The notes under the pieces were generated by a model. The model was not told where the DNA came from. It saw only the letters and a list, made by a program, of their open reading frames with translations, and searched no databases. A program made the position numbers and the translations under genes. DNA of 64,000 bases from Natrinema salaciae (GTDB lineage: Archaea > Halobacteriota > Halobacteria > Halobacteriales > Natrialbaceae): positions 1 through 64,000 of the forward strand of contig NZ_FOFD01000003.1 in assembly GCF_900110865.1 (NCBI RefSeq), given 5' to 3'. Shown here one piece after another: positions 22,433 to 52,950 of the stretch; the first letter of the stretch is position 1, and each line of letters begins with the position of its first letter.

Positions 22433-23764
22433 ATGGTCCTGGCCACTCGTGACTCGAACGACGACCTGTTGGTCTCCGCCGACGTCCTCGGCTCGTTCGG
22501 CGTCACGCCGACGGACATCGGACGGGCGGCGTCCGGTGACGACACCCTCGAGGCGGCGCTGGCCGACGCCTTCGCGACGTCGGTCGACCGGACCGCGGTG
22601 CTCCGCCGAACGATCACGCGGAGCGACCGCGGACTCGCCTGCGCGGCCCGGTACTCGCGGGCGGCGCTCGAGCGCGAACTCGCGGCCGTCTTCGAGGCGA
22701 TCGGCTGGTCGCTCGCCGGTTCGGTCACGCGGACGGGGATCGAACTGACGGCGACGGATCCCCGCGGTCGCCGCCGCGAGGCGACGGTCGCGTACCCGGA
22801 CACGCCGCTCGCGACCGACAACCTCCCCGCCGTCCTGTGGGCGATCAACGACGAGATTCTCGCCAGGACCGACGCCCGGTTCGTCCTCCTCTCCAGCGGC
22901 GTCGACCGCTGGCGGGCCGCGCTGGTCGACGCGGGCGAACTCGAGCGACTCCGGGACCGCTACGGGCCGCGAATCGAAGCGTTCGACCGGCCGCTGCTAC
23001 CGACACACGGACTCGAGGCGTACGTGCCCGCGGCGGGCGACGACCCGACCGCCAGCGGCGATGACGACCCGTGGCCGCCGTGGGCGCTGGAGGGCAACGC
23101 CCGTCGGGCGGCGAACTCGCCCGCGACCGTCGACTCGCTCATCGACGAAGCCGAGCCGTCGACGGAACGGGAGCCGGAACCGAATTCGGAACCGGCGACC
23201 ACGTCGACCCCCTCGAGGGAGGTCGACGGATTCGAACTCCGCGGTCGCCCGTCGGTCGCACGACGCCGTGACGAAGACGATAGTGACGACGATGATGGGT
23301 GCCGGTCTCCGGAGCGCGACTGCGCGACGCCCGATGCCGACGATGCAGGCGGGGCCGCGGGCTCGAGTCGGCCCGAGCGAGCGACGAGCGACAACGGAGA
23401 CGGAGACGGAGATGGAGACGCGACGAAGGCGGACGAGTTCGGGACGCTCTCGGGAGGCTGCGAGACCGCGCGCGTCACGAACGACGCCTTCGGGGCGGAC
23501 CTCGAGTGCCGGTCCGACGACGATCGCTATCGCGCGCTCGGCGCGGCGCTCGACGCGGGCGGGGCCGTCTCCGTCCGGGGATTGCTCGAGGACGACGACT
23601 TCCTCCCCGAACTGCCGGCCGTCGGCTCCGAGGAGACCCGCATCGAGTTCGCCGACGGGTGTGCGCCCGTGGACATCCCCGACGCGACGGCGGCAGCAGA
23701 ACGGTCCGGATTCGAGTGGGTCGACGCCGGCTCGCTCGAGACGACGCGCGTGTCCGAGGGGTAG
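22433..23764 (+). CDS. Haloarchaeal protein of unknown function, three-part architecture
   Basis: I do not recognise this 443-residue soluble protein. Residues about 1-205 form a compact N-terminal domain (VSADVLGSFGVTPTDIGRAA, PATDP-like strand region, AINDEILARTDARFVLLSSG). Residues about 205-345 are a low-complexity Asp/Glu/Ser/Arg linker. Residues about 345-443 form a second domain (TARVTNDAFGADLECRSDD, SVRGLLEDDDFLPELPAVG). A textbook Shine-Dalgarno GGAGGT at 22423-22428 fixes ATG 22433. A TATA-like GATATATAGG lies about 30 nt upstream. It is followed by the phe leader region. Confidence 0.75.
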   Translation: MVLATRDSNDDLLVSADVLGSFGVTPTDIGRAASGDDTLEAALADAFATSVDRTAVLRRTITRSDRGLACAARYSRAALERELAAVFEAIGWSLAGSVTRTGIELTATDPRGRRREATVAYPDTPLATDNLPAVLWAINDEILARTDARFVLLSSGVDRWRAALVDAGELERLRDRYGPRIEAFDRPLLPTHGLEAYVPAAGDDPTASGDDDPWPPWALEGNARRAANSPATVDSLIDEAEPSTEREPEPNSEPATTSTPSREVDGFELRGRPSVARRRDEDDSDDDDGCRSPERDCATPDADDAGGAAGSSRPERATSDNGDGDGDGDATKADEFGTLSGGCETARVTNDAFGADLECRSDDDRYRALGAALDAGGAVSVRGLLEDDDFLPELPAVGSEETRIEFADGCAPVDIPDATAAAERSGFEWVDAGSLETTRVSEG

Positions 23765-23796
23765 CGTGCAGTGGTGTGGTGACTCGTATCACAACG

Positions 23797-23804
23797 TTTT
23801 TAGG
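23797..23804 (+). promoter_or_regulatory. TATA-like element of the pheST leader
   Basis: TTTTTAGG at 23797-23804 has its centre about 27 nt before ATG 23827. In haloarchaea this spacing puts the transcription start at the A of that ATG, so the small leader ORF would be translated from a leaderless mRNA. No better TATA element is seen closer to pheS. Confidence 0.6.
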
Positions 23805-23826
23805 CCGGTCGCGAGTGAGACCGCGT

Positions 23827-23910
23827 ATGGCATCCGAATCCCACGGAATCGGTGTCGGCAGCCAGCCACAGCGCCAGCGGTCGGGGTTCGGCTTCTTCTT
23901 CGCCCGGTGA
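23827..23910 (+). CDS. Candidate phenylalanine-rich leader peptide upstream of pheST
   Basis: The 27-codon ORF begins MASESHGIG and ends RSGFGFFFAR-stop, with four TTC Phe codons in the last seven sense codons. It begins where the TATA position predicts a leaderless start. Its last two sense codons are in the 5' arm of a perfect hairpin, and the stop codon is in the loop. The next gene encodes Phe-tRNA synthetase alpha. The layout matches bacterial phe leader peptides, in which ribosome stalling at Phe codons reports low Phe-tRNA. Translation and regulatory function are inferred. Confidence 0.6.
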   Translation: MASESHGIGVGSQPQRQRSGFGFFFAR

Positions 23911-24000
23911 AACCGGGCCGGTGGATCCGCGGGGGCTCACATCGAGTGCGCGCGGCGAAACCGACCGTTCGACACCGTCCGGGGAGTCGTTCTCGGACGG
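23902..24000 (+). promoter_or_regulatory. Three consecutive stem-loops in the pheST 5' leader
   Basis: Stem 1: GCCCGG (23902-23907) / CCGGGC (23913-23918) with loop TGAAA holding the leader stop codon. Stem 2: CCGCG (23927-23931) / CGCGG (23951-23955) with inner GCTC/GAGT. Stem 3: CCGTCC (23975-23980) / GGACGG (23995-24000) with inner GAG/CTC. None is followed by a clear U-tract, so plain intrinsic termination is not obvious. Control through RNA switching or translation of pheS is possible. Confidence 0.5.
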
Positions 24001-24047
24001 GTATCGGAACCGCTAACTGACCGACACGCAGGCATACGAACAAGCGA

Positions 24048-25574
24048 ATGCAACTTCCATCACAACAGGTCGCGGTCCTGAAGACCGCGAACGCGGACGA
24101 GGCAACGTCCGTCGACGCCCTCGCCACGGCGACCGACCTCCCTCCCGAAACCGTCACCGGGGCGGTCTTCGAACTCGAGGACGAGGGGCTGGTCGCCGTC
24201 AGCGAACGCGTCGACGAAACGGTCGCCCTGACCGACGAGGGGCGCGAGTACGTGGCCGAGGGGCTTCCCGAGGTCCGACTGTACGAGGCAGCGCTCGAGG
24301 CCGGTGCCGACGCCGACCCCGTCTCGATGGGGCAGGTCATCGGCGCGTCGGGTCTCGAGGGGAACGCGGTCGACATCGCGCTCTCGAACTACGCGCGCAA
24401 GGGCTACGGCGCGATCGACGGCGGCGAGATCACGGCCGATCCGGACGCAGCGCCGGACGCCGACACGGAGGCGAACGCGCTCGCGGCGCTCGCCGACGCC
24501 GACGACGCGCCGACCGACGGCGTCGACGTGGATTCGGAGGCGCTCGAATCGCTCGACCGACGCGGCCTGCTCGAGCGCCGCGAGTCGACGGTCCGCGAAG
24601 TGACCCTGACCGAGCGCGCCGTCACGGAGCTGATGGCGGGGCTCGAGACCGCCGAAACGGTCGGCCAGGTCACGCCGGAACTCCTGACGAGCGGCGAGTG
24701 GGCGGACGTCGAGTTCGCCGAGTACAACGTCGAGGCCGACGCCGAGCAGTTCCAGGGCGGCAACGTCCACATCCTGCGCCAGACCGCCGAGCGCGTGAAA
24801 GACGTCCTCGTCGGCATGGGCTTTCAGGAGATGGAGGGCCCGCACGTCGACGCGGACTTCTGGATCAACGACTGCCTGTTCATGCCCCAGGACCACCCCG
24901 CGCGGACGCACTGGGACCGGTTCGCCTTGGAACAGCCAACCCACATCGGCGAGCTTCCGGACGACCTCGTCGACCGCGTCGAGCGGGCGCACAAGGAGGG
25001 CGTCGGCCCGGACGGCGAGGGCTATCACTCGCCGTGGGACGAGGACTTCGCGCGGGCGCTCGCGCTGCGCGGACACACCACCTCGCTGTCGACCCGCTAC
25101 CTCTCGGGCGAGGAGATCGGCGAACTCGAGCCGCCACAGCGGTACTTCAGCGTCGAGAAGGTGTACCGCAACGACACGCTCGACCCGACCCACCTGCTCG
25201 AGTTCTTCCAGATCGAGGGCTGGGTGATGGCCGACGACCTCTCGGTGCGCGACCTGATGGGCACCTTCGAGGAGTTCTACGCCCAGTTCGGTATCGAGGA
25301 CATCCAGTTCAAGCCCCACTACAACCCCTACACCGAGCCGAGCTTCGAGCTGTTCGGCACTCACCCGACGACCGGCGAACTGGTCGAGATCGGCAACTCG
25401 GGCATCTTCCGCGAAGAGATGCTCGATCCCCTCGGCGTCGACTGCGACGTGATGGCGTGGGGACTGGCCCTCGAGCGACTGCTCATGCTGATGTACGGCT
25501 TCGAGGACATCCGGGACATCCACGGGACGCTGTGTGACCTGGAACTGCTGCGCGAAACGGAGGTGACCTACTGA
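24048..25574 (+). CDS. pheS: Phenylalanine--tRNA ligase alpha subunit
   Basis: This is the catalytic subunit of the heterotetrameric class II synthetase, 508 residues. The N-terminal ~200 residues are winged-helix-like tRNA-binding modules with an acidic Ala/Asp insertion (about 140-165). The catalytic core includes FQEMEGPHVDADFWINDCLF (motif 2-proximal), the motif region VEKVYRNDTLDPTHLLEFFQ, FKPHYNPYTEPSFELFGTHP and WGLALERLLMLMYG (motif 3 Arg). The TGATG overlap with pheT shows translational coupling. It lies 137 nt after the candidate leader ORF. Confidence 0.96.
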   Translation: MQLPSQQVAVLKTANADEATSVDALATATDLPPETVTGAVFELEDEGLVAVSERVDETVALTDEGREYVAEGLPEVRLYEAALEAGADADPVSMGQVIGASGLEGNAVDIALSNYARKGYGAIDGGEITADPDAAPDADTEANALAALADADDAPTDGVDVDSEALESLDRRGLLERRESTVREVTLTERAVTELMAGLETAETVGQVTPELLTSGEWADVEFAEYNVEADAEQFQGGNVHILRQTAERVKDVLVGMGFQEMEGPHVDADFWINDCLFMPQDHPARTHWDRFALEQPTHIGELPDDLVDRVERAHKEGVGPDGEGYHSPWDEDFARALALRGHTTSLSTRYLSGEEIGELEPPQRYFSVEKVYRNDTLDPTHLLEFFQIEGWVMADDLSVRDLMGTFEEFYAQFGIEDIQFKPHYNPYTEPSFELFGTHPTTGELVEIGNSGIFREEMLDPLGVDCDVMAWGLALERLLMLMYGFEDIRDIHGTLCDLELLRETEVTY

Positions 25575-27301
25575 TGCCCACGGTCGACATCGACCCCGAC
25601 GAACTGCGTACCCTGACCGGCCACGACGAGAAGAGCGACGACGACCTGATCGACGACCTGTTCGGGCTCGGCCTCGAGTTCGAGGGCCGAACCGAGGACG
25701 GCGAGTTCGAACTCGAGTTCGCGCCCGACCGTCTCGATCGGCTCTCCGTCGAGGGCGTCGCCCGCTCGATGCGCTACCAGTACGGCGACGCGCGAGGTGT
25801 ACACGTCCCCTCGCCGAACTCGCCGGACTGGACGATCGAAGTCGACGAGTCGGTCCCCGACGACCGCCCGTACGTCACGGGTGCGGTCGTCCGCGACGTC
25901 GACTTAGACGAGGAGTCCCTCGAGTCTCTGATTCAGCTCCAGGAGAAGCTCCACGCGACGATGGGGCGCAAACGCGCGAAGGGCGCGATCGGAATCCACG
26001 ATCTGACGATGCTGAAGGGGAGCGCCGCCACGGAAGGCAATCCGACGATCCAGTACGTTGGCGTCGAACCCGACGAAGATCGGTTCGTTCCCCTCGATTC
26101 CGATCGAGAGATGACGCCCGCCGACGTGCTCGAGGACCACCAGACGGGACAGACCTACGCCGACCTGGTCAGCGAGTACGAGCGCTACCCCGCGATCTAC
26201 GACAGCATCGGGCTGTTCTCGTTCCCGCCGGTCATCAACGGCCGGCGGACCGAGGTGTCGACGGACTCACGGGACCTGTTCGTCGAGATGACCGGCACCG
26301 ACCAGTGGACGATCGACAAGATGCTGACCATCGTCTGCTACGCGCTCTCGGCCCGGGGAGCCACGCTCGAGGAAGTGCGGGTGGAGTATCCGGATAGCGA
26401 GTCCGGCGGACGCGAACTCGTCCGCCCGGATCTCTCGATGAAGACGAAGACGGTCGCGCACGACCGCATCGAGACCATCCTCGGGATCGGGCTCGATCCC
26501 GACGACGTGATCGATCTCGCCGAGCGATCCGGGCTCGAGGCCGAAAAGGCGGAGAACGACGCTGGCGACCTCGTCTACGAGGTGACGATCCCACCCTACC
26601 GCGTCGACGTGCTCCACCCGCTGGACATCATCGACGACCTCGGGCGGGCCTACGGCTTCAACGACCTCGAGCCCCGCTACCCCGACATCGGGACCGTCGG
26701 CGGTCGTCACGAGCGCTCCCGGCTCGAGAACGCCGCCCGCACGCAGCTCGTCGGGCTCGGCTTCGAGGACATGCTGAACTTCCACATGATCAGCGAGGCC
26801 GAGAACTACGACCGGCTCGATGTGTCGCCCGGTGACGACGTCTACGGCACCGGCGAGCCGGCGACCATCAAAGAACCCTACAGCGAGGACTTCACCATGC
26901 TTCGAACCTGGGTCACGCCCTCACTCCTGATGGTCCTCGAGCGGAACACCCACCGGTCGTACCCGCAGAACCTCGCCGAGATCGGCTTCGCCGCCGAAGT
27001 CGACGAGCGCGAGAACACCGGCGTCAGCGAGGGTCGCCGCGTCGGGGCCGTCCTCGCACACCACGACGCCGGCTACGAGGACGCCAAGGCGCGGCTACAG
27101 GCGCTGGCCCGCAACTTCGACGTCGAACTGGAGACGCCGCCGACCGACCACCCGACCTTCATTTCGGGTCGAACCGCGGCGGTCGTCATCGACGGTGAGG
27201 AAGTCGGCGTGCTCGGCGAGGTCCACCCGAAGGTGCTCGTCGAACACGACCTCGAGGTACCGGTCTCGGCGTTCGAATTCGACCTCGAGGCGCTCCGATA
27301 G
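25574..27301 (+). CDS. pheT: Phenylalanine--tRNA ligase beta subunit
   Basis: This structural/editing subunit of PheRS has 575 residues, the archaeal/eukaryal size. It has the B3/B4 editing region (RPYVTGAVVRDVDLDEESLE, LHATMGRKRAKGAIGIHDL), B5 (PPYRVDVLHPLDIIDDLGRA) and a catalytic-like B6/B7 module (YSEDFTMLRTWVTPSLLMVL). The C-terminal anticodon-binding extension of bacterial PheT is absent, as expected for archaea. The start overlaps the pheS stop by one base. Confidence 0.96.
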   Translation: MPTVDIDPDELRTLTGHDEKSDDDLIDDLFGLGLEFEGRTEDGEFELEFAPDRLDRLSVEGVARSMRYQYGDARGVHVPSPNSPDWTIEVDESVPDDRPYVTGAVVRDVDLDEESLESLIQLQEKLHATMGRKRAKGAIGIHDLTMLKGSAATEGNPTIQYVGVEPDEDRFVPLDSDREMTPADVLEDHQTGQTYADLVSEYERYPAIYDSIGLFSFPPVINGRRTEVSTDSRDLFVEMTGTDQWTIDKMLTIVCYALSARGATLEEVRVEYPDSESGGRELVRPDLSMKTKTVAHDRIETILGIGLDPDDVIDLAERSGLEAEKAENDAGDLVYEVTIPPYRVDVLHPLDIIDDLGRAYGFNDLEPRYPDIGTVGGRHERSRLENAARTQLVGLGFEDMLNFHMISEAENYDRLDVSPGDDVYGTGEPATIKEPYSEDFTMLRTWVTPSLLMVLERNTHRSYPQNLAEIGFAAEVDERENTGVSEGRRVGAVLAHHDAGYEDAKARLQALARNFDVELETPPTDHPTFISGRTAAVVIDGEEVGVLGEVHPKVLVEHDLEVPVSAFEFDLEALR

Positions 27302-32992: not shown

Positions 32993-33805
32993 ATGGCTGC
33001 AGTTACGCTCGGACCCGAAGGGACCTACTCTCACAGAGCGGCAAGTGCGGTCGCCGACGACGACGCGATCGACTTCCGGCAGTCGGTCACGTCGATCGTC
33101 GACGCCGTCGCCGGCGGCGAGTACGATCGGGGCGTTATCCCGATCGAGAACAGTATCGAGGGCTCCGTGACGGAGAGCCTCGACGCCATCGCCGAGTACG
33201 ATGTCGCCGTCGTCCGCGAGATCGTGACCCCGATCAGACACGCCTTGCTCGCTCAGGGTCCGGAGTTCGACACTATCGCCAGTCACTCGCAGGCACTGGC
33301 ACAGTGTCGCTCGTATCTCGAGCGCGAGTATCCCGACGCGACCCTCGAGGCCGTCGCGAGCACGGCCCAGGGCGTCGAGTTCGCCCGTGACGACCCCTCG
33401 GTCGCGGGAATCGGCCATCCGGCGAACGCGGGCGACGGTATCGAGGTCCTGGCCGAAGACATTCAGGACCAGGACTCCAACGCGACGCGCTTCTTCGCGC
33501 TCGCACCCGCCGAGGAGCGCTCGAAGGGCGGCGGCAAGACCTCGCTGGTGGTCTACCCGAACGCGAACTACCCCGGGCTGTTGCTCGAACTACTCGAACC
33601 GTTCGCGGATCGCGACATCAACCTGACCCGCGTCGAATCGCGCCCGAGCGGCCAGCGACTGGGCGATTACGTCTTCCACGTCGACTTCGAGGCGGGGCTC
33701 TACGAGTCGCGGACGACGGAGGCGATCGACGATCTCGAGGAACTCGCCGAGAACGGCTGGGTTCGGCGGCTGGGGTCGTACGATACCGAGCACGTCGTCG
33801 AGTAG
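32993..33805 (+). CDS. pheA: Prephenate dehydratase
   Basis: This enzyme converts prephenate to phenylpyruvate in phenylalanine synthesis. The 270-residue protein has the catalytic domain with LGPEGTYSHRAAS, GVIPIENSIEGSVTESLD, and the catalytic TRF motif in SNATRFFAL. A C-terminal ACT domain (TSLVVYPNANYPGLLLELL, ESRPSGQRLGDYVFHVD) provides Phe feedback inhibition; the ESRP motif for Phe binding is intact. ATG 32993 is about 28 nt after TCTTTTGACC, consistent with a leaderless mRNA. No chorismate mutase domain is fused. Confidence 0.95.
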   Translation: MAAVTLGPEGTYSHRAASAVADDDAIDFRQSVTSIVDAVAGGEYDRGVIPIENSIEGSVTESLDAIAEYDVAVVREIVTPIRHALLAQGPEFDTIASHSQALAQCRSYLEREYPDATLEAVASTAQGVEFARDDPSVAGIGHPANAGDGIEVLAEDIQDQDSNATRFFALAPAEERSKGGGKTSLVVYPNANYPGLLLELLEPFADRDINLTRVESRPSGQRLGDYVFHVDFEAGLYESRTTEAIDDLEELAENGWVRRLGSYDTEHVVE

Positions 33806-34084: not shown

Positions 34085-34282
34085 ACGGAAGTATATCCGA
34101 ATGCACCGGCATAATATGTCCGACGTTGGCAGAAATGACCGTAACTGGTGCCGGATCGGCACGCCGTGTCGACGAAACCGCCGTATTCGTTCAGTCCAGT
34201 GTGAGCGGAATGTAGGTGTGGCGGACGAAAGTCGAGCGTGACCCGCTGTGAGCGGCGTCGAAATCCGCGGGTGTCGTCGAAA

Positions 34283-34355
34283 GTCCGGGTGCGAGAATCG
34301 AACTCCGCGTCTCAGCCCGCACAGGCTGAAGGATAGCCACTACCCCAACCCGGAC
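34283..34355 (-). tRNA. tRNA-His(GTG)-like gene with structural defects
   Basis: The minus strand folds as a tRNA. The acceptor stem is GTCCGGGT/ACCCGGAC, including the extra 5' G opposite the 3' C diagnostic of tRNA-His. The D-arm GGGGTAGTGGCTATCC, anticodon stem CAGCC/GGCTG with GTG in its loop, and T-loop TTCGATT are present. Two oddities: the anticodon loop is 6 nt (TGTGCG) and not 7, and the T-stem 5' arm is GCGGAG against CTCGC, leaving one bulged G. Either this is a degenerate copy, a sequence error, or an unusual tRNA. No 3' CCA is encoded. Confidence 0.7.
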
Positions 34356-51508: not shown

Positions 51509-52726
51509 CTACCGCTCGAGCGGCGATGGGACGCCCGCTCGCTCGAGCGCCCGTCGCCGCTCCCGCTCGGGCAACCGGAAGGGCTCGAGTTCGGCCTCGA
51601 GCGACCCCAGTTCCCCGCGCCGGTGCTGGTGTTCCGAGAGGAACTCGGTAATCCGATCGATGGCGATCTCCTTCAACTCGCCGCTGAGGAGCTCGCCCGA
51701 TCGATAGTCGGCCGCGATGCGCTCGAGGGCGGCGTCGTCGGGTTCGAAGAAGTATCGGAGGTACTGGAAGGGAACGTCGACGGTCGGATCACCGCCGTTC
51801 TCGCGGTGATCCGCGAGGGTCGCCCGGCCACCGGTGTACGCGTGCGTTCGGATCGTCTCGGCGACCGTTTCGGGGTCCGCGGTGAGTTCGATCGACGGCG
51901 CGTCGCCGGAGGAACTCATCTTCCCCGGACCCTCGAGACTCGGGAGGAACCGACCGAGCAGTGCGCCCGGTTTTTCCACTGGAAGCGCCTCCCTCGCGGC
52001 GACGTCGCGACAGACGCGGACGTGCGGGTCCTGATCGACGGCGATGGGGACCAGCGTCGGCTGGCGGCCCGCAACGAGTTGCGGGAGCAGGAGGTGGGTC
52101 GCCTGCACGGCTGGATAAAACTGCAGACCGACGGTATCCTGATCGCCGTAAACGGCGTCGACCGTGGCCGGCGTGAGGTGCTTCGCGAGGCGAACCGCGA
52201 TCGGGTAGATCACGTCCGCGTCGGCGGTGTCGACGACGATTTGCGTCCGGTCGGGATCGAAACCGACGGCGAGGATGTCCCGCAGGTTGTCCCGCGTGTG
52301 CTCGCCGATGGCGTCGAACGACTGGTCCTTCGCGAGGAACTTCTCGTCGTCGGAGAGTGGGAGATACACCGTCGCTCCCGTCACCCGCTGGAACCGCTTC
52401 GCGAGGTACAGCGGGAGGACGTGCCCCAGATGCATCGGTCCCGAGGGGCCGCGACCGGTGACGATCGCGTGCGGATCGCCGGCCGCAGCGGCCTCGAGAT
52501 ACCGGTCGACGTCACGTCCCGCGTAGAACGTTCGGCGACGGAGCAGCGGGTGGTCGGGGAAGCGAGCGATCTGCCCGTCGGTCAGCGGATCGGCCCCGAA
52601 CCGCTCGAGGAGTTTCTCGTAGTCGATCTCCCCCTCGACGGCGGCGGGAGTGACGGTAAACTGGCCGGCGGACGGATTCGATTCGGTACGAGCGGTGCTG
52701 TCTGTGGGTTCGTTTGGCTCTGTCAT
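51509..52726 (-). CDS. Second tryptophanyl-tRNA synthetase-like protein
   Basis: This is a shorter TrpRS paralogue, 405 residues. The HIGH-equivalent is GPSGPMHLGHVLP (about 93-105) and the KMSKS-equivalent is GPGKMSSSGDAPSIE (269-273 KMSSS). IAVDQDPHVRVCRD matches the active-site sequence of the 526-residue TrpRS at 20710-22290. The C-terminal anticodon region (LKEIAIDRITEFLSEHQHRR) is present but the overall protein lacks about 120 residues. Two TrpRS genes are common in haloarchaea. Whether this one charges tRNA-Trp or has a specialised role is open. Confidence 0.88.
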   Translation of the reverse strand: MTEPNEPTDSTARTESNPSAGQFTVTPAAVEGEIDYEKLLERFGADPLTDGQIARFPDHPLLRRRTFYAGRDVDRYLEAAAAGDPHAIVTGRGPSGPMHLGHVLPLYLAKRFQRVTGATVYLPLSDDEKFLAKDQSFDAIGEHTRDNLRDILAVGFDPDRTQIVVDTADADVIYPIAVRLAKHLTPATVDAVYGDQDTVGLQFYPAVQATHLLLPQLVAGRQPTLVPIAVDQDPHVRVCRDVAAREALPVEKPGALLGRFLPSLEGPGKMSSSGDAPSIELTADPETVAETIRTHAYTGGRATLADHRENGGDPTVDVPFQYLRYFFEPDDAALERIAADYRSGELLSGELKEIAIDRITEFLSEHQHRRGELGSLEAELEPFRLPERERRRALERAGVPSPLER

Positions 52727-52950
52727 TTGTGTTGGTCGGGTGCAGCGGCGAGGGGACGATTCGGACGAAAACGAGCGGAGGGAGCATCCGTCGCCGCAGT
52801 CGACGGGTTAGGCCGCGTCGCCCGCCGCGACGACACTGTCCGCTCTCGAGGGGGCTTTCCAGCGCCACTGCCAACCGAGAGCGGCCGTCACTATCGCGTT
52901 CTTTTCAACCGACGGTAAAGAAGATGTCGGCGGGCTGTCGCCGCGTCGAA

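Follow-up and report, generated by a model that had tools for sequence, protein, structure and literature searches.

The pheST operon of the haloarchaeon Natrinema salaciae, encoding the alpha and beta subunits of phenylalanine--tRNA ligase, is preceded by a short open reading frame (ORF) ending in clustered Phe codons, and this arrangement raises the question of whether an archaeon can sense an amino acid through the translation of a leader peptide. Ribosome-mediated attenuation is a textbook bacterial mechanism; the enterobacterial pheST attenuator uses the pheM leader peptide, and pheA/pheL and trpL are further examples. We analysed positions 1 to 64,000 of contig NZ_FOFD01000003.1 (the whole stretch of 64 kb, hereafter the window) together with related loci, and we suggest, with a probability of about 0.8, that the ORF acts as a cis-acting amino-acid-sensing leader of an archaeon, in which the cognate codons of the leader peptide do the sensing.

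A phenylalanine-codon reading frame upstream of pheS

The operon and its upstream region are organised as follows.
23790-23802, plus strand: putative leader promoter, BRE-like CACAACG and TATA box TTTTTA (23797-23802), the latter beginning 30 nt before the leader ATG
23827-23910, plus strand: Phe leader peptide ORF, 27 codons, MASESHGIGVGSQPQRQRSGFGFFFAR, identified by frame test and codon variation
23887-23889 and 23893-23901, plus strand: Phe codons of the Phe leader
24005-24020, plus strand: pheS-proximal box CGGAACCGCTAACTGA, BRE/TATA-like, about 34 nt before pheS, probably a second, weaker promoter
24048-25574, plus strand: pheS, phenylalanine--tRNA ligase subunit alpha (NF003210, TIGR00468)
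25574-27301, plus strand: pheT, phenylalanine--tRNA ligase subunit beta, archaeal (TIGR00471)

As described in the first-pass annotation, the 27-codon ORF closes with S-G-F-G-F-F-F-A-R-stop and carries TTC at four of its seven final codons. It is alone among the 243 short ATG ORFs of the 64-kb window in having at least four Phe within the final nine residues, and the binomial probability of at least four Phe in seven residues is 6e-5. A scan for a TATA box followed by a short ATG ORF returned the Phe leader and one other match in the 64 kb, located at 40266-40207 on the minus strand, whose ORF contains two copies of a palindromic sequence of the CGTCTGCAGACG type.

Using a strict rule, we found the Phe leader upstream of pheS in 116 of the 133 haloarchaeal loci sampled across the order, and in 70 of the 79 loci taken from organism-named records, a set which partly overlaps the first one. 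Within the genus, it is present in every genome with a pheS upstream region examined; named carriers include Natrinema, Natrialba, Natronorubrum, Haloferax larsenii, Haloarcula, Halobacterium, Halorussus and Haladaptatus, and additional sampling added further haloarchaeal families. The Phe run, whose loss in related genomes would have spoken against the initial reading, is thus kept across the class Halobacteria. Among the loci that failed the strict rule, several are variant leaders (L059, L060, L061, L109 and L132) and roughly twelve genuinely lack the leader, which was lost or never present in L047, L056, L098, L099, L101, L103, L104, L108, L114, L122 and L131. Among the 79 named loci, Halohasta, Halonotius, a Natronomonas MAG and Halomicrobium katesii either lack it or have it in decayed form. 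Several deep haloarchaeal families, represented mostly by MAGs, showed no leader, and neither did the 18 loci sampled elsewhere in the phylum, in classes other than Halobacteria. Since lineages such as L047, L056, Halohasta, Halonotius and Natronomonas do without it, the leader is dispensable, and lineages of this kind provide natural controls for its function. Decaying or variant leaders were also observed (L132, L253 from H. katesii, and L234), in which the C-terminus is altered, the start codon is missing or the frame is shifted by one base.

The coding status of the ORF was assessed with no frame assumed: the TATA box plus ATG marked the start, and a nucleotide motif further downstream marked the end. 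The distance between the two is divisible by three in 140 of the 141 distinct Phe leaders, and no in-frame stop was encountered; the single exception, L234, comes from a MAG and is possibly an assembly error. Changes in the Phe run fall mainly at third positions (TTC/TTT), although a residue other than Phe, e.g. Val, is sometimes encoded at its second or third codon. The peptide is 24-54 residues long, with a middle part variable in both sequence and length. By these signatures, the Phe leader ORF is clearly coding, and its conservation in the class, combined with the frame test, places it far beyond chance.

The TTT run of the TATA box begins 29 or 30 nt 5' of the leader ATG in 170 of the 181 scored leaders, and the leader mRNA is therefore probably leaderless, starting at or next to the ATG. 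In Haloferax volcanii, 72% of the protein-coding transcripts are leaderless and haloarchaeal promoters show the motifs TTWT/CGAAA, according to a published dRNA-seq study (PMC4983044). The same source lists for the pheS gene HVO_2948 a 5'-UTR of 150-250 nt with a 26-aa uORF of pI 5.9 (Table 2, row 13), and gives no additional transcription start site (TSS) at this gene. The Haloferax relatives carry 26-aa Phe leaders of pI 5.94 that begin 212 nt before pheS; given this match in length, pI and position, the HVO_2948 uORF is very probably the same Phe leader. A start site downstream of the Phe ORF, which would have spoken against the initial reading, is thus not what PMC4983044 indicates for H. 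volcanii, where the 5'-UTR is long and no separate pheS TSS is reported. The view that leader and pheS share one transcript is supported by these data, which come from Haloferax, another haloarchaeon than the genome of the window.

The pheS-proximal box bears directly on this point. In 124 loci its TAAC sits 34 nt upstream of pheS, and genomes devoid of the Phe leader keep the box too; it probably serves pheS as a second, weaker promoter. This may make pheS partly leader-independent and counts against the model. One could go further and propose that the leader transcript is a separate unit, pheS being driven by this proximal GGAACCGCTAAC box and any effect of the leader being exerted through transcriptional interference or in the form of a small RNA. 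Retention of the box after leader loss and its fixed position favour such a separation, against which stand the long 5'-UTR (150-250 nt) and lack of a TSS at pheS reported for H. volcanii (PMC4983044), together with a spacer that contains no terminator-like U-tract; we regard it as improbable. The box was also considered as a generic genomic element, an idea rejected on finding one exact genomic copy and two with 2 mismatches.

Pairing within and behind the leader

Two covarying stems, P0 and P1, and a hairpin at the stop codon were located in the leader region.
23834-23842, plus strand: P0 5' strand CCGAATCCC, beginning 7 nt after the A of the ATG, with covariation
23883-23891, plus strand: P0 3' strand GGGGTTCGG, covering the Ser/Pro-Gly-Phe-Gly codons and ending 19 nt before the stop-codon end
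23903-23917, plus strand: stop-codon hairpin CCCGGT/ACCGGG, 6 bp (arms 23903-23908 and 23912-23917), lineage-specific
23916-23966, plus strand: hairpin P1, made of an outer helix, an internal loop and an inner helix, beginning just after the stop codon, with covariation

In P0, nucleotides +7 to +15 of the ORF pair with the x-Gly-Phe-Gly codons. Across 115 leaders, the outermost of the nine pairs forms in 86% and each of the other eight in 94-100%; slid pairing registers collapse. The covariation score, which counts double changes that preserve pairing, is 0.084 over 37 distinct rows versus 0.025 +/- 0.008 with shuffled partners (maximum of 500, 0.050); shuffle controls overstate significance because the sequences are related and not independent, and matched P0 changes nonetheless occur in several families. 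Indeed, the first base of codon 5 (Ser/Pro) tracks the synonymous third base of Gly (T-A 63, C-G 33, T-G 16, other 3), a Glu-to-Gly change in L007 is matched by Phe-to-Ser so that P0 is preserved, and other matched changes were found in L067, L111, L062 and L130. We therefore attribute the conservation of the N-terminal peptide largely to RNA pairing, and P0, which was absent from the first-pass annotation, is the strongest constraint on the ORF. In the fold of the window leader, enforcing P0 gives -96 kcal/mol versus -102 for the unconstrained minimum, i.e. 6 kcal/mol less stable, which counts against the model.

These pairings weigh on the idea that the ORF encodes a functional microprotein that merely lies next to pheS and whose active part is the C-terminal GFGFFFAR. 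The strongly conserved C-terminus and the clear coding signal would suit a microprotein of this type, which we nevertheless hold to be very improbable, the middle of the peptide being variable in sequence and length (24-54 aa), its N-terminal conservation being explained by P0, with residue changes that track the pairing (L007, L130, L067 and L062), and the leader adjoining pheS in all families.

The perfect 6-bp hairpin previously described at the stop codon is present and encloses most of that codon, but it is confined to near relatives; its 3' arm overlaps the P1 base. The two further stem-loops reported between this hairpin and pheS do exist in the window, the third hairpin being missing from compact leaders such as L039, L062 and L074 and hence not conserved. 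P1 is of a different kind. Over 48 sequences, 86.8% of its cells pair versus 67.5 +/- 1.2% when shuffled, and its covariation is 0.468 versus 0.157; a second count, with the loop motifs as anchors, gave 0.283 versus 0.066 for the inner helix and 0.095 versus 0.027 for the outer one. The internal loop YGRAY/CGAAA (core YGRA/GAAA) is nearly invariant while the helices vary. A covariance model (R1) matched at 23910-23967 with E = 1.3e-9 and gave one strong match per genome, at pheS only, so that P1 was rejected as an element shared elsewhere in the genome.

The invariant loop on variable helices, and the confinement of P1 to pheS, are what one would expect of a binding site for PheRS or another protein, in an autoregulation to which translation of the leader would be secondary. 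This proposal leaves the Phe run, the in-frame conservation and the fixed spacing of P0 unexplained, and P1 could still work jointly with stalling; we consider it an unlikely account of the whole region. Still less credible, indeed close to negligible, is a T-box-like, tRNA-binding riboswitch. The lead came from the string GGTGGAYCCGCG of P1, which resembles the bacterial T-box sequence. This reading was rejected: an Rfam 15 cmscan of 23600-24200 returned no match for the Phe leader up to E = 5, the full string is confined to near relatives, beyond which only YGGA and CGAAA persist, a stem I-like region is lacking and the Phe run is conserved as coding sequence.

Although P0 and P1 both covary, they share no strand. 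When searched by eye, the P0 3' strand could be matched to P1 or to the pheS box over only 5-6 bp, interrupted and devoid of covariation, and pairing between the two 3' strands, also examined by eye, is imperfect and ignores the changes in P0. No conserved alternative pairing linking a P0 strand to a P1 strand came to light, which counts against the model and leaves a classical terminator/antiterminator switch hypothetical.

A tryptophan-codon leader before a trpS paralog

A second leader was found in the window, on the minus strand.
52808-52891, minus strand: Trp leader peptide ORF with GTG start and three Trp codons, VTAALGWQWRWKAPSRADSVVAAGDAA (begins VTAALGWQWRWKAP)
52875-52884, minus strand: Trp leader stem, 5' strand CCGCTCTCGG
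52840-52849, minus strand: Trp leader stem, 3' strand TCGAGAGCGG, followed by the conserved ACAGTGTCG
51524-52726, minus strand: trpS paralog, tryptophan--tRNA ligase (NF008927), behind the Trp leader

The Trp leader, with one to four Trp codons, was found automatically in 69 of the 78 haloarchaeal trpS-paralog loci, several of the remaining nine carrying a variant, and all 63 distinct Trp leaders are in frame. Its stem covaries (0.133 versus 0.027 +/- 0.007 shuffled) and, in 53 of 68 leaders, begins 6 nt 3' of the start codon, close to the position of P0. In Haloferax mediterranei and H. larsenii, whose trpS paralogs are plasmid-borne, the leader has 23 aa and its Trp-Arg-Trp lies within a stem of 11-12 bp; the 23-aa uORF listed in H. 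volcanii for the tryptophan--tRNA ligase HVO_A0127 (PMC4983044, Table 2, row 12) is very probably the same locus. Rfam gave only chance-level matches for the Trp leader.

The two leaders have no common sequence and the same cognate-codon logic, a parallel which further argues against the microprotein. Apart from cognate-codon sensing, little would explain why the design reappears, with Trp codons, upstream of a trpS paralog, and we read both leaders as ribosome-stalling sensors of aminoacyl-tRNA supply because cognate codons occur at two synthetase genes, each with a covarying stem by a probable leaderless start.

Several further observations come from the same window. A conserved pyrimidine-rich tract of the GCTCACTCGCTTTCTC type lies between the Trp leader and trpS (e.g. 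52780-52750, minus strand) and could be a termination or pairing element. The main trpS (20710) has no leader in the window scan requiring an ATG and a TATA box. A prephenate dehydratase (pheA-like) gene is located at 33005-33508, about 6 kb 3' of pheT, so that genes for Phe synthesis and Phe-tRNA charging are neighbours; no leader was found upstream of it, and in the genus no Phe-type leader was found at pheA or hisS. ARAGORN predicts one tRNA of undetermined type at 34282-34355 on the minus strand, whose anticodon is read as four bases (gtgc); it may be an ordinary tRNA that was misread.

Proposed mechanism and its place among attenuators

The geometry of the Phe leader suggests how a ribosome could select between the two stems. 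Of 183 leaders, 146 have the 3' end of P0 exactly 19 nt from the stop-codon end and another 20 have it at 16 nt; most Phe codons are located between P0 and the stop. A ribosome covers about 15 nt upstream and 17 nt downstream of its P-site. With this footprint and spacing, a terminating ribosome would just clear the 3' strand of P0 and cover the base of P1, and a ribosome with its A site on any of the Phe-run codons would cover the P0 3' strand and leave P1 free.

We therefore propose the following sequence of events. Transcription would begin at or next to the leader ATG and give a leaderless mRNA extending into pheS, a step supported by the sequence and by the published Haloferax start sites; the ribosome would then translate the 27-codon ORF, as the coding signatures support. 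When Phe-tRNA is ample, the ribosome would reach the stop, P0 would close near the 5' end and the P1 base would be covered. When it is scarce, stalling a few codons earlier, on the Phe run, would keep P0 open and let P1 fold, both states being deduced from the spacing. Finally, the state with P0 open and P1 folded would raise pheST expression, which is the least certain step. The likeliest output, to which we give rather less than half of the total probability, would be read-through of the spacer by RNA polymerase, i.e. antitermination of a factor-dependent termination that uses no U-tract; an effect on mRNA stability, or repeated ribosome loading at the leaderless 5' end, would rank next. The earlier reading of the ORF as a Phe leader controlling pheST is thus supported by the comparative evidence, while the stalling, the direction of its effect and the output step are what we infer.

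The spacer constrains the output. It measures 75-231 nt from leader stop to pheS and, in line with the missing U-tract first reported for this locus, its longest T run is at most 3 in all 186 leaders; an SD-like sequence precedes pheS in merely 5 of 211 loci. Neither an intrinsic, bacterial-style terminator nor SD masking therefore fits, and the output step must differ from that of bacterial attenuators. In archaea, termination by aCPSF1/FttA and the presence of a coupled ribosome have been proposed to exclude each other (PMC8116511), which makes such termination a plausible, conjectural output step; aCPSF1 prefers U4 tracts (PMC8716108), whereas the pheS spacer contains none.

Like the bacterial pheST/pheM, pheA/pheL and trpL systems, the Phe leader is a short cognate-codon ORF located 5' of a synthetase or biosynthesis operon, upstream on the same transcript (transcript data being those of H. 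volcanii, PMC4983044), with RNA structures so positioned that ribosome location would decide which one forms. It differs from them by its archaeal host, by a leaderless ORF starting at or near the 5' end, by a P0 which pairs the mRNA 5' end with leader codons, by Phe codons lying mostly between P0 and the stop, and by P0 and P1 having no common strand. Neither the G+C-rich hairpin with U-tract of a bacterial terminator (186 leaders) nor the masked SD of a translational attenuator was found between leader and gene. Because the U-tract terminator is absent, we place the Phe leader outside the bacterial terminator-type family; on the sequence evidence it is best explained as working like an attenuator.

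The first-pass annotation knew of no established archaeal equivalent, and no archaeal leader-peptide attenuator was found in the literature searched, with subscription journals mostly outside it, though two of these uORFs are listed for H. volcanii by Babski et al. (2016, PMC4983044). There they appear as small proteins in long 5'-UTRs; the article's text does not contain the string 'attenuat', and the passages considered describe neither runs of cognate codons nor conserved stems nor conservation across the class.

We are inclined, with somewhat better than even confidence, to a broader proposal, namely that amino-acid attenuation exists in haloarchaea in a general, archaeal form, made of leaderless cognate-codon leaders, a stem 6-7 nt after the start codon opened by the stalled ribosome, and an output independent of U-tracts, present in parallel at pheST and at the trpS paralog and with more members to be expected. 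If this is true, expression of a gene in archaea would be coupled to translation of the leader in front of it, through an output step that needs no U-tract terminator. It would also explain two H. volcanii uORFs which are listed without interpretation, and since Haloferax has the leader, archaeal transcription-translation coupling would become directly testable in a tractable host.
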